The notes under the pieces: generated by a model | Databases searched by the model: none | Told to the model about the DNA's origin: nothing | What the model saw: the letters and a program-made list of their open reading frames with translations, nothing else | Part shown: positions 41,414-52,232 of the stretch, one piece after another | How the letters are laid out: each line of letters starts with the position of its first letter | Numbering within the stretch: position 1 is the stretch's first letter | DNA from: Faecalibacterium sp. I4-3-84 | GTDB lineage: Bacteria; Bacillota; Clostridia; Oscillospirales; Ruminococcaceae | Assembly (NCBI RefSeq): GCF_023347255.1 | Contig: NZ_CP094466.1 | Span: 2,480,001-2,544,000 of the forward strand | Direction: 5' to 3' | Length of the DNA: 64,000 nt | Made by a program: the position numbers and the translations under genes

Positions 41414-41655
41414 ATGTTTGACTATTTCTATGGGCAGTCGGGCGAGATGTTCTCGTATTTCCGGGTGCCCAAAATTTTATTCCGGGACATAAAATTCAAG
41501 GACCTGTCCACTGATGCCAAAACGCTGTACGGCATCCTGTTGGACCGCATGAGCCTGTCCGTGAAAAACGGATGGCTGCACTCTACAATGCACCCACGAC
41601 CATGCAGCTTTATTACCAGAACCAAACCAATCATGATTTATCGAACAGGGGGTGA
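41414..41655 (+). pseudogene. RepA_N-type replication initiator, N-terminal remnant
   Basis: Residues 1-54 (starting FDYFYGQSGEMFSYFRVPKI, with DAKTLYGILLDRMSLSVKNGW) match the N-terminus of RepA_N initiator proteins of Firmicute plasmids and conjugative elements. After NGW, at about 41577, the homology ends. A different frame then reads APTTMQLYYQNQTNHDLSNRG and stops at 41655, possibly the natural tail of the same or a neighbouring gene. A deletion of most of repA explains both pieces. Confidence 0.7.
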
Positions 41656-41660
41656 TGAAA

Positions 41661-42638
41661 ATGTCGAAAAAAGCAACCACGATTGCCATCGTCAATCAGA
41701 AAGGCGGAACCGGCAAAACCACGACCTGCGAAAATCTGGGCGTAGGGCTTGCACGGGAAGGCAAAAAGATGCTGCTGGTGGATGCCGACCCGCAGGGGTC
41801 GCTTACCATAGTTGCTTCGCTCCTATGGCCAGTTGTGCGCACTGCATGCGGATTCATAGTTGTCCGCTGCGCAGACATTGCCATCAGCATGGGCTGGCAG
41901 CAGCCCGATGAACTGCCTGTTACGCTTTCTGCCCTGATGGCAAAAGCCATGAACGACCAGTGCATCCCGCTCGGTGAAGGCATCCTGCACCATGTGGAAG
42001 GCGTTGACCTGATTCCGGCCAACATCGAACTGGCAGGGCTGGAAGTGGCCCTTGTCAACAGTATGAGCCGGGAAAAGATGCTCAAACAGGTGTTGGACAG
42101 CGCCCGGCGGGAATACGATTATATCCTGCTGGATTGTACGCCGTCTCTGGGAATGCTGACCGTAGTCGCTCCGCTTCTATGGCTAGCGGTACGCACTATG
42201 TGCGAATTTATAATTATCTCCTGCGGAGATACCGCCATCAATGCACTGGCCGCAGCGGATACCACTCTGATTCCGGTGCAGGCGCAGTACCTTTCGGCAA
42301 AGGGACTGGAGCAGCTGCTGCAGACCATTCAGAAAGTGCGCCGGCAAATCAACCCGAAGCTAAAAATCGAGGGTATCCTGATGACCATGACGGACAGCCG
42401 CACCAATTACGGCAGGGAAATCGATGCACTGATTCGGCAGGTGTACGGCAGCAAAATCCGGGTGTTTGAGCAGCCCATTTCGCACTCTGTCCGTGCAGCG
42501 GAAATCAGCGCGGGGGGCAGGAGCATCTTTGCCCATGACCCCAAAGGCAAGGTGGCAGCGGCCTATCAATCTTTGACGAGAGAGGTGCTGGCCGATGCCG
42601 AAAAGCAACGCAAACTTGGCGCTGAAAGGTCTCGATGA
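41661..42638 (+). CDS. ParA/Soj-type partition ATPase with two in-frame insertions
   Basis: A 325-residue ParA. The deviant Walker A is VNQKGGTGKTTTCENL (about residues 11-26), Walker A' is DADPQG, and Walker B is ILLDCTPS. Two related 25-residue insertions interrupt the fold: one after QGSLT (41808-41882), one after SLGMLT (42162-42236). Without them the protein would be about 275 residues, the usual ParA length, and the flanks would read SLT-ISMGW and MLT-INALAAADT as in relatives. Start ATG 41661 follows GGGGGTG. It overlaps the parB remnant. If translated, the insertions sit beside nucleotide-binding loops. Confidence 0.85.
   Translation: MSKKATTIAIVNQKGGTGKTTTCENLGVGLAREGKKMLLVDADPQGSLTIVASLLWPVVRTACGFIVVRCADIAISMGWQQPDELPVTLSALMAKAMNDQCIPLGEGILHHVEGVDLIPANIELAGLEVALVNSMSREKMLKQVLDSARREYDYILLDCTPSLGMLTVVAPLLWLAVRTMCEFIIISCGDTAINALAAADTTLIPVQAQYLSAKGLEQLLQTIQKVRRQINPKLKIEGILMTMTDSRTNYGREIDALIRQVYGSKIRVFEQPISHSVRAAEISAGGRSIFAHDPKGKVAAAYQSLTREVLADAEKQRKLGAERSR
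41808..41882 (+). repeat. 75-bp in-frame insertion element, copy 1 (in parA)
   Basis: Encodes 25 residues from IVASLLWPVVRT to VVRCADIA between Walker A' and ISMGW. About 72% identical (54/75 by hand count) to copy 2. Central hairpin CGCA-N5-TGCG is conserved. The outer arms CTTCGC and GCGCAG pair imperfectly. Confidence 0.8.
42162..42236 (+). repeat. 75-bp in-frame insertion element, copy 2 (in parA)
   Basis: Encodes 25 residues from VVAPLLWLAVRT to IISCGDTA after Walker B. Paired arms are visible: CTCCGC (42169-42174) with GCGGAG (42223-42228), GCGGTA (42186-42191) with TACCGC (42230-42235), and the central CGCA/TGCG (42192-42204). Insertion follows an ACC (Thr) codon, as in copy 1. Confidence 0.8.
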
Positions 42639-43095
42639 GATGTTTTCCACCGAAGAATCCCGGCAGGAGCAAAAACGGGAGCAAGTGCAGCAGATTCCCA
42701 TCGAGGAGCTGTTCCCTTTCAAGGAGCATCCATTCAAGGTGCTGGACGATGAGGCTATGCAGCGTACGGTGGAAAGCGTGGCACAGTACGGCGTACTGGC
42801 TCCGCTGATTGCAAGGCCCCGACCGGAAGGCGGATATGAGATCATCTCCGGCCACCGCCGTCAGCACGCCGCCGAGCTTGCCGGGCTGGACACGCTGCCC
42901 GTTATCGTCCGGGAAATGACGGACGATGCCGCAGTTTTGCTTATGGTGGATTCCAATTTGCAACGTGAACACATCCTGCCCAGTGAGCGGGCTTTTGCGT
43001 ACAAAATGAAGCTGGAAGCCTTAAAAAATCAAGGTGCTAGGTCGGATTTGACTTCCACCCAAATTGGGCGGAAGTTGGAGGCAGCAGATATCTGA
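42595..43095 (+). pseudogene. ParB-type partition protein, C-terminally truncated
   Basis: The 166-residue frame carries the ParB nuclease-like domain: IPIEELFPFKEHPFKVLDDE, GGYEIISGHRRQHAAELAG and VDSNLQREHILPSERAFAYK. At SDLTSTQIGRK (about 43070), where the helix-turn-helix domain should continue, the sequence switches to the YodL-type gene in another frame and stops at 43093-43095. DNA-binding and dimerisation regions are missing. Confidence 0.8.
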
Positions 43096-50824: not shown

Positions 50825-52030
50825 TTATTTTGAGTGTTTGGAGTCCATTACAGCTTTCACTCTAGCATAATAGATTCGCAAGAACTTGTTGGCTGAAGCC
50901 ATCATGTAAACTTTGTAGGGTTTTCCCTCAGAGCGCTTTTTGTTCATGAATTGAAAAACCGGCTCATCCTGAGGTTGTGTCTTCAAGATGACAGTCATAA
51001 TCAGAAAGAGCGTCCTACGTAGAACAGCCGAACCCACTTTACTAATTCCGCTATCGTTGCCCACAATCTTGCCAGAATCATTTGGCTGCGGTTCAATTCC
51101 TGCAAATGCAATGAGTGATTTCTTGGATGAGAAACGACGGACATCTCCGATCTCAGCCATCAGTTGAGGACCGAGAGAAGGGCCGACGCCGTACATTTCC
51201 ATCACAGTATCAAATTCCGGAAGCTGTTGAGAAAGGCGAAGCATCTCCTGCTGGAATGCAGCCACGGACTGAGATACGGCTTTCAGCTGAGCGACCTGTT
51301 GCTGAATAAGGAGTTTTGAGGTTGGGGATTTTGGAAGAGAAGCAGCATTGACTGCACAGGCATAGATCGTATCCGATTTTGAGCGAGTGAAATTATATCC
51401 GTGCTTCTGACACCACTTTAAATACTTTTTAGCAAAGGCATCAGAGGAAAGGCTTGAAACACACTCACTGTGCCAGAAGTCTCCAATGAAATCGACCCAT
51501 TTTTCGCACCCGTTGCTCTTTGCGGGGCTTGAAAATAGCTTGTTTGCATCTGGAAAGGTCAGGTCAAGAGATGAGATCAGATTATTCTTCAGCATAGTAC
51601 GAACTGCCACGGCTTGCTGGTACTGACGATAACAATTCTTCAAAGCCAGCCGGGTATCATCTTCGGGAAGATACTGTCGTAGCCGTGTCCACTTGTCGAG
51701 CGTATAGTTGGCGATTTTAACAGCGTCTTTTCTATCCGTTTTGACACGTCTTAAACTGTTGTTGTCATAGTCATGAATCAGAACAGGATTGACTACGGAA
51801 ACGAATAAGCCCGCATCGTGTAAAACGAAAGCAACTGGTTTGTGGTAATTCCCGGTGGCTTCCATGACGACACGGGTCTCTCCGTCCAAAGCTTTGAGCT
51901 TCCCAGCCAGATCGTTCAGGCTTTGGGCGGTGTGTAAAACTTCAAAGGGTTCGAGTACTACTTCTCCAAAGGGGCGCATGACGCAAACCATGCTCTTTCC
52001 TTTGGAAACGTCAATGCCTACAGCGTTCAT
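50825..52030 (-). CDS. IS110-family transposase (DEDD recombinase)
   Basis: A 401-residue transposase. The N-terminal RuvC-like DEDD domain has AVGIDVSKGKSMVCV, VVMEATGNYHKPVAF and VKTDRKDAVKIA. The C-terminal Transposase_20 domain has MYGVGPSLGPQLMAEIGD and FAGIEPQPNDSGK, whose Ser is the conserved recombination nucleophile. Start ATG 52030 follows GGAGGAAC; an in-frame extension to 52174 covers the leader and lacks a ribosome binding site. All motifs are intact, so it may be active. Confidence 0.92.
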   Translation of the reverse strand: MNAVGIDVSKGKSMVCVMRPFGEVVLEPFEVLHTAQSLNDLAGKLKALDGETRVVMEATGNYHKPVAFVLHDAGLFVSVVNPVLIHDYDNNSLRRVKTDRKDAVKIANYTLDKWTRLRQYLPEDDTRLALKNCYRQYQQAVAVRTMLKNNLISSLDLTFPDANKLFSSPAKSNGCEKWVDFIGDFWHSECVSSLSSDAFAKKYLKWCQKHGYNFTRSKSDTIYACAVNAASLPKSPTSKLLIQQQVAQLKAVSQSVAAFQQEMLRLSQQLPEFDTVMEMYGVGPSLGPQLMAEIGDVRRFSSKKSLIAFAGIEPQPNDSGKIVGNDSGISKVGSAVLRRTLFLIMTVILKTQPQDEPVFQFMNKKRSEGKPYKVYMMASANKFLRIYYARVKAVMDSKHSK

Positions 52031-52039
52031 AACGGTTCC

Positions 52040-52232
52040 TCCATTACTTTGTATTTGCAACCGGAATCCATCTTTTACTCGTTGCCGATTCAATCTATTG
52101 GGTGACACGAACGCTCCGCTTGGCGGGTGGCTCAACCTGCTTAAAACGAATGCTACAACAAGAGAGATGGTCAACTGTCTTTAGAACGGGCGTAGAAGCC
52201 CAGAGAATGATGCGTTAGCCGATTACTCTCTT
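52040..52232 (-). ncRNA. Candidate IS110 bridge RNA (transposase leader)
   Basis: About 190 nt lie between a TACAAT -10-like box (52233-52238, minus strand) and the transposase start. On the minus strand AAGAGAG (52226-52232) pairs with CTCTCTT (52160-52166), enclosing hairpin GGGC-TTCTAC-GCCC. A second region has CCGC-CAA-GCGG. Known IS110-group elements encode their guide RNA in this position with internal loops of this kind. Confidence 0.55.

Follow-up and report, generated by a model that had tools for sequence, protein, structure and literature searches.

The parA gene of the analysed window, a stretch of 64,000 nucleotides from Faecalibacterium sp. I4-3-84, is interrupted by two related hairpin segments that are copies of an apparently undescribed small mobile element of Faecalibacterium. 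We consider it probable that both segments are insertions of a short, non-autonomous palindromic element mobilized by a recombinase acting in trans, and that they are translated and probably tolerated in a module that has decayed in the window. The element forms a family with a defined structure, empty sites and a preference for particular insertion sites. In published Faecalibacterium literature, covered as titles and abstract starts in an open-access library, we found no description of such an element.

Two in-frame inserts in parA

The parA open reading frame (41652..42638, + strand) encodes a 328-aa ATPase, which was assigned to the ParA/Soj family by Pfam (AAA_31, 1.1e-49; CbiA, 3.6e-22) and by solved relatives. 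Insert 1 (41808..41882, + strand; IVASLLWPVVRTACGFIVVRCADIA) lies directly after DADPQGSLT and insert 2 (42162..42236, + strand; VVAPLLWLAVRTMCEFIIISCGDTA) directly after LLDCTPSLGMLT, positions that we take to follow the DPQG stretch and the Walker B stretch, respectively. Both are 75 nt long, absent from the paralogues and in frame, with an ACC threonine codon before and an ATC isoleucine codon after. They share 54/75 bases (74% identity over 86 nt) and the motif CGCA-N5-TGCG. This confirmed, in coordinates, identity and motif, what a sequence-only reading of the window had described as two 75-nt in-frame hairpin segments.

Taking the inserts out restores the usual ParA text, as that reading had proposed, and the result matches the paralogues of the same genome (QGSLT-ISMGW and GMLT-INALAAADT). 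The same-genome parA copies at 2666 kb, 924 kb and 419 kb are uninterrupted at both sites, and a parA fragment at 1424 kb is uninterrupted at site 1. No such insert is present at either site in 24 of the 27 rows of the parA set. Alignments to solved ParA/Soj relatives break at insert 1 and again at insert 2, restarting directly after insert 2. The predicted junction-spanning tryptic peptides of the window parA are MLLVDADPQGSLTIVASLLWPVVR.

The element folds into a 5′ hairpin followed by a core, in which a stem closes off two hairpins. The 5′ hairpin of insert 1 (CCATAG...CTATGG; 41806..41828, + strand) begins with the left CCAT repeat (41806-41809), and the core (41827..41884, + strand) ends with the right CCAT repeat (41881-41884). 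In insert 2, the 5′ hairpin (CCGTAG...CTATGG; 42160..42182, + strand) begins with a left repeat reading CCGT (42160-42163), while the core (42181..42238, + strand) again ends with CCAT (42235-42238). Two covariance models were built: R1 from the two window inserts, searched over 31 Faecalibacterium genomes, and R2 from the cores of 21 sequences, with which 150 candidates per genome were scored. Insert 1 scored 99.9 bits with R1 and 64.2 bits with R2; the corresponding scores of insert 2 were 106.9 bits and 61.5 bits.

The core alignment of 21 rows was assembled from model matches and from reading arrays. Its structure pairs 93.3% of cells, compared with 81.5% in shuffles (0/500 reach this level; n = 21 rows), and 11 of the 16 core pairs have changes on both sides. 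The covariation score of the core is 0.447, and no slid control exceeds 0.148; these controls weigh more than the shuffles because related rows can exceed shuffles without any structure. Further pair types were no more numerous than in shuffles (18 versus 19.0). The outer stem swaps among members between GGC/GCC, GCC/GGC, ACC/GGT and GGT/ACC, with one of its three pairs failing in 5/21 rows. Taken singly, the inserts fold modestly better than shuffles (z of -1.4 and -2.5). Covariation on the two inserts alone is no better than in shuffles (136/500 reach it), so that the structural evidence comes from the 21 family members, over which covariation supports a folded core and, with it, the proposal of a hairpin-forming, palindromic family.

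Members, empty sites and targets of the family

Searches with R1 matched 9/31 genus genomes at E ≤ 10 and 7/31 at E ≤ 0.01. R2 extended this to at least 13/31 at E ≤ 0.01, the weakest of which are doubtful, and at least 9/31 at 1e-6 or better. Copy numbers are low, with at least 18 R2 matches at E ≤ 0.01 in the richest genome, G017. The family is visible only through a covariance model and not by single-insert BLAST: insert 1 found nothing above chance but itself in its own genome, and insert 2 nothing above chance in the genus but a copy in genome G009. BLAST with one array unit of G017 matched that genome in 23 places at E ≤ 1, including 14 at 1.2e-11 or better. In a family-wide model search with 22 candidates scored per genome, at least 2 of 247 genomes matched at E ≤ 1e-8, both of them Faecalibacterium. 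A pattern scan of named genome contigs yielded 20 stretches; five, on four Faecalibacterium contigs, reached 59-76 bits with R2, and none of the remaining 15 exceeded 28.5 bits. In phage and plasmid collections, parA relatives were matched in pieces. Five parA relatives on viral contigs had no insert in the matched part, and element patterns on viral contigs gave one stretch of 20.7 bits with R2, two further scans giving none. Other genomic copies of the element therefore exist, as the sequence-only reading had expected; of its 'Firmicutes' element the family stood, with a range that on these limited searches is the genus Faecalibacterium.

Two genomes of other Faecalibacterium species have an in-frame insert at one of the two parA sites. 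In G008, site 1 is filled and site 2 is empty; R1 finds this insert at 86.7 bits (E 2.9e-15), which is far from chance. In G023, site 2 is filled and site 1 is empty, and the penultimate codon of the insert is an in-frame TAG. G009 has insert 2 at 99% identity in a parA with a replaced 5′ part, in which only the tail of insert 1 is left. The replacing sequence (contig C38; L027, about 270-330) looks like repA and is joined at GCTGCGCAGACA in that tail, which may be the recombination point. An isolated parA scrap in G016 (C13; L108, 1501-1600) starts inside the tail of a G008-like site-1 insert and is apparently what remains of a further gene filled at site 1.

Outside parA, family members were found in a relaxase and at an integrase start in G018 and G009, and as intergenic single copies and tandem arrays in G017, G024 and G023, together with G022 at E 0.019 (R1). 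Across members, the element is about 68-83 nt long. The tandem arrays (L056, L037, L039, L040 and L055) have a period of about 76-83 nt, and most units have their own TATAAT. Array sites are located upstream of what we take to be an alaX-like gene, near tRNA-Met, and between presumably GntR-like and acetyltransferase-like genes. Shorter, more distant relatives in G027 (L107, 35.5 bits; L119, 30.7 bits) start at TGTTATAAT, occur as tandem repeats and perhaps form another subfamily. A weak match of 28.6 bits at a contig end in G025 (L109, 1501-1567) is a repeated unit whose first hairpin is GTGGGTCTATT... and in which no TATAAT was seen; it may represent a subfamily that targets a different sequence. 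Two further weak matches, in G014 (L110, 27.5 bits) and at 1770 kb in G018 (L125, 23.5 bits), lie apparently at the same place and are without the boundary promoter box.

Empty sites exist for parA, the relaxase, the integrase and a tRNA-Gln promoter, in agreement with an inserted element. The filled relaxase genes of G018 and G009 exceed five aligned empty copies (G000, G002, a second G018 copy, G008 and G003) by a net 69 nt. This insert is in frame, antisense to the gene and without a stop (VKTHH[IWRHPPKRMLIYSCAARTAGHTK]YIISFD), and at its right junction one base misfits a simple duplication. The likeness of the G018 relaxase to the empty copies stops about 33 codons short of the ORF end (the matches start at query position 2333), so that its C-terminus looks altered. 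At the integrase start, G018 is 68 nt longer than five aligned empty copies, the extra stretch being bounded on either side by CATA, and G009 is alike. The flanks of the best empty relaxase and integrase sites are 94-98% identical. At the tRNA-Gln promoter of G017, the element lies between two TATAAT boxes, where a single box (TATACT or TATAAT) is present in 6/6 relatives chosen for alignment. The direct repeats vary and include CCAT, CCGT/CCAT, CATA, an irregular ATAT and up to 10 nt at a promoter.

Without its inserts, the window parA contains five ACCAT and exactly two ACCATCA; the two ACCATCA are on the coding strand and both are filled. The inserts of G008 and G023 use those same two positions. 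Site 2 is ACCGTCA in some of the empty parA copies, and the left repeat of insert 2 is CCGT; insert 2 may therefore have entered ACCGTCA, while ACCAT(C/T)A would be the point of entry in parA otherwise. Read on the opposite strand, the ACCAT of parA becomes ATGGT, a string that TATGGTATAAT contains as well; we regard this as a lead only.

At 16 of 19 hand-picked non-coding loci, the element starts at an extended -10 box (TGGTATAAT); the number of independent loci is below 19, because the set includes orthologous loci (upstream of the alaX-like gene in G017, G022, G024 and G023) and a 29-nt partial match (G017 C19). A script for T[AG]TG[GTC]TATAAT at the 5′ boundary, with one substitution allowed, recovers the box at 14/19 loci, and G024 C22 and G016 C15, whose scanned slices were cut, also have it. 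The box is absent in the two weak matches (G014 and G018), and the left edge in G025 ends with the contig. The set excludes the coding-looking weak matches L111 and L120, G008 C52, which lies at the position already represented by G016 C15, and all short BLAST fragments except G017 C19. At the single locus where empty relatives were aligned, the -10 box belongs to the host. The far end of the element repeats TATAAT or TATAAC in 11/19 loci and lacks such a repeat in 8/19. The filled ACCATCA positions and the -10 boxes bear out the expectation of sequence-specific insertion, which in genes is mostly by whole codons and elsewhere mostly at promoters.

Movement of the element and competing explanations

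The model-found family, its empty sites and its specific targets agree with the earlier claim of mobility. We propose that the element is mobilized in the form of folded single-stranded DNA, or else as a MITE rich in hairpins, and that a recombinase supplied in trans would recognize the folded form. The internal TATGG, complementary to CCAT/CATA at both junctions, may, judging from few sites, help to choose or hold the target. Between genes, the element would enter mostly so that it starts at an extended -10 box, and the far-end TATAAT (the 11/19 loci above) would let the promoter survive. A bolder version, in which the element represents a self-repairing class whose internal complement reads the target, which rebuilds the TATAAT of the -10 box and which enters genes by a fixed multiple of three with an open frame, seems doubtful to us, the more so as the far-side box is present in 11 of the 19 loci rather than nearly all of them. 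If true, transcription and translation would be uninterrupted, and the recombination mechanism would be of a kind undescribed for known MITEs.

The mobilizing enzyme was not found, the candidate searched for being a Y1 transposase (PF01797). Elements of the IS200/IS605 and REP-RAYT types insert 3′ of a short target without true duplication, and their guides pair with both cleavage sites. Movement by such a Y1 HUH transposase would suit the fixed orientation relative to the target in parA, the right end, which is mostly G[GC]CAT or GGTAT, and the complementarity of the internal TATGG to both junctions. However, the copy-rich genomes G017, G022 and G024 have no intact PF01797 match, at 92% completeness for G022 and 89% for G024. 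Among eight genomes searched, there was no match in G022, G024, G023, G018 and G008, a stop-bearing fragment in G017, and a full-length match in G000 and, with a stop, in G009. A Y1 transposase is thus not a good candidate in the copy-rich genomes, and we hold this route to be a minority possibility.

We also considered whether parA is a repeated target at all, or whether each site was filled once and homologous recombination then carried the insert from one parA to another. In favour of such a transfer, insert 1 matches the G008 insert at 63/75 positions (84%), near the 80% identity of the genes. By contrast, the site-1 flanks of G000 and G008 (43/60 and 49/60) fall within the range seen between the window and 15 empty copies; the flanks of the window and G008 are not specially alike, which speaks against transfer by local recombination. 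Moreover, seven empty copies surround the filled G008 parA in the tree, each separated from it by 61 to 80 differences over 816 positions, most of them at third positions. We judge this explanation unlikely.

In a tree of 27 parA copies with the inserts removed, the three filled copies occupy three separate places. Three changes are forced by the starred branches, with bootstrap not settled, and a single gain with repeated exact losses is formally still compatible with the tree. The tree took in only parA copies with a fetched locus. Fragments and broken copies were left out (G029 C1:950k, which starts at residue 49; G018 C1:859k; G028 C1:11k, split in two; G000 C1:1424k; G009 C38; and G005), as were the 273-residue G029 C1:708k, the duplicates L057, L073 and L077, the distant viral L032 and a ParA group at about 40% identity. 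Differences between insert 1 and insert 2 are spread over the three codon positions as 6/7/8 and those between insert 1 and the G008 insert as 4/3/5, unlike the 35/25/105 between the parA bodies of the window and G008. Being even over codon positions, the insert differences indicate that the inserts did not diverge as protein.

The sequence-only reading had asked for orthologous parA genes with empty sites, and these were found among the paralogues and in other genomes, alongside further copies of the element. Ancestral loops of this ParA clade, which it had named as an alternative, were rejected in view of the empty copies, the separate tree places and the codon-even insert differences.

A single entry into parA, with the second copy arising by intragenic recombination or template switching between similar sites, would be favoured by the GCTNACCATCA shared by both sites and by the common orientation and phase of the inserts. 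Site 1 is filled alone in G008 and site 2 alone in G023, however, and insert 1 is nearer to the G008 insert (63/75) than to insert 2 (54/75). Both observations led us to reject intragenic duplication, to which we give a slight chance at most.

That a normal ParA is made, through excision of the inserts from the mRNA or through ribosomal skipping, is hardly credible. Exact, in-frame junctions, an RNA that can fold, the otherwise intact rep-par module around the filled parA of G008 and an escape from the in-frame TAG of the G023 insert would fit. Against this, Rfam gave two chance-level matches only, neither a self-splicing intron nor a known ribozyme; members of the family also occur in non-coding promoters and arrays, where skipping would serve no purpose; the integrase copy of 68 nt is not a multiple of three; and we know of no self-splicing intron as small as 75 nt. 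Nothing found in the sequences supports the removal or bypass at the RNA or ribosome level that the earlier reading had entertained.

Reading frame, rep-par module and known elements

Under the preferred reading, the mobile element would be translated with its host gene. All four parA inserts are 75 nt long and three of the four have no stop at this phase; the ORF is thus not closed, and translation of each copy would add 25 residues. The proposed preservation of frame stood for parA (75 nt) and the relaxase (net 69 nt) and failed for the G023 parA insert, with its TAG, and the 68-nt integrase insert. In nine sequences, 28/54 frames are open compared with 18.3 in shuffles (0/300 reach this number), an excess that we do not use as proof because the nine are related and hand-chosen.

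The rep-par module of the window (41414-43095) is degenerate. Only the two ends of RepA remain in the repA remnant (41417..41652, + strand), which matches residues 3-56 and 249-283 of a 288-aa RepA. The shortened parB (42595..43095, + strand) matches residues 1-164 of a 309-residue paralogue, about half the length. With the neighbouring repA and parB broken, a damaged window ParA need not be selected against, and the inserts are probably tolerated because the module had already decayed. This does not cover every case, since the filled parA of G008, whose frame is open over 324 codons, belongs to a module that appears intact, flanked by RepA residues 1-281 of 288 and ParB residues 1-289 of 309 (to the locus end); there, the 25 extra residues may be tolerated or may be removed. 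The substitutions found only in the window parA fall on codon positions as 5/5/3 and those found only in G008 as 2/2/9, which suggests relaxed constraint on the window parA, in small numbers and differing comparison sets. An AlphaFold2 model of the filled ParA (6 sequences) has a mean pLDDT of 61.8 and says little, because residues 41-73 and 158-187, all below 50, hold nearly all of both inserts. Elsewhere in the window, an ORF (50825-52174, - strand) that presumably resembles IS110-family transposases has the same N-terminal text as found beside the parA loci L004 and L005.

Translational bypass elements (T4 gene 60 and the yeast mitochondrial byps) are likewise short, hairpin-bearing inserts in an ORF. 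The Faecalibacterium family differs from them in that it also occupies non-coding promoters and in that nothing found points to skipping. REP sequences are described as palindromic units of 20-40 bp, most with GTAG or CGTC tags, some of them within genes or close together (PMC3733652). The Faecalibacterium element shares with REP/RAYT systems, so described, the palindromic units that are sometimes inside genes and sometimes close together; it is longer, at 68-83 nt, and its copy-rich genomes have no intact Y1 transposase.

Correia elements are bacterial MITEs, small and non-autonomous, that frequently lie upstream of genes and contain promoter sequences (PMC10969869). The element described here is also small and non-autonomous, with 68-83 nt, no gene of its own and several copies, and is often located upstream of genes, likewise with promoter sequences in it. 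Three partial G017 copies inspected for an autonomous parent showed no parent insertion sequence. Unlike Correia elements, it has a core in which a stem encloses two hairpins, and the host -10 box is often repeated at its far end. The Rickettsia palindromic elements (RPE) are short repeats of about 150 bp found in frame in unrelated coding genes of more than one Rickettsia species (PMC10969869). Compared by description only, the Faecalibacterium element is like the RPE families in its in-frame insertion with an open frame, in unrelated genes and in more than one species, and unlike them in its length of 68-83 nt, specific short targets, tandem arrays and -10 boxes. In-frame, stop-free insertion with empty relatives was found at two sites of parA and in the relaxase, the exceptions being the TAG in G023 and the 68-nt integrase insert. 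Rickettsia palindromic elements and other MITEs are the closest known kinds.

In-frame palindromic elements are best known from Rickettsia, and Faecalibacterium, a common gut commensal, adds a second case that is apparently separate. Thanks to its defined targets and near-identical empty sites, the question of how such elements avoid harm can be tested on alleles with and without the element in culturable strains. One way in which harm may be avoided is suggested by the promoter copies, in that the end of the element can repeat the -10 box it has entered.
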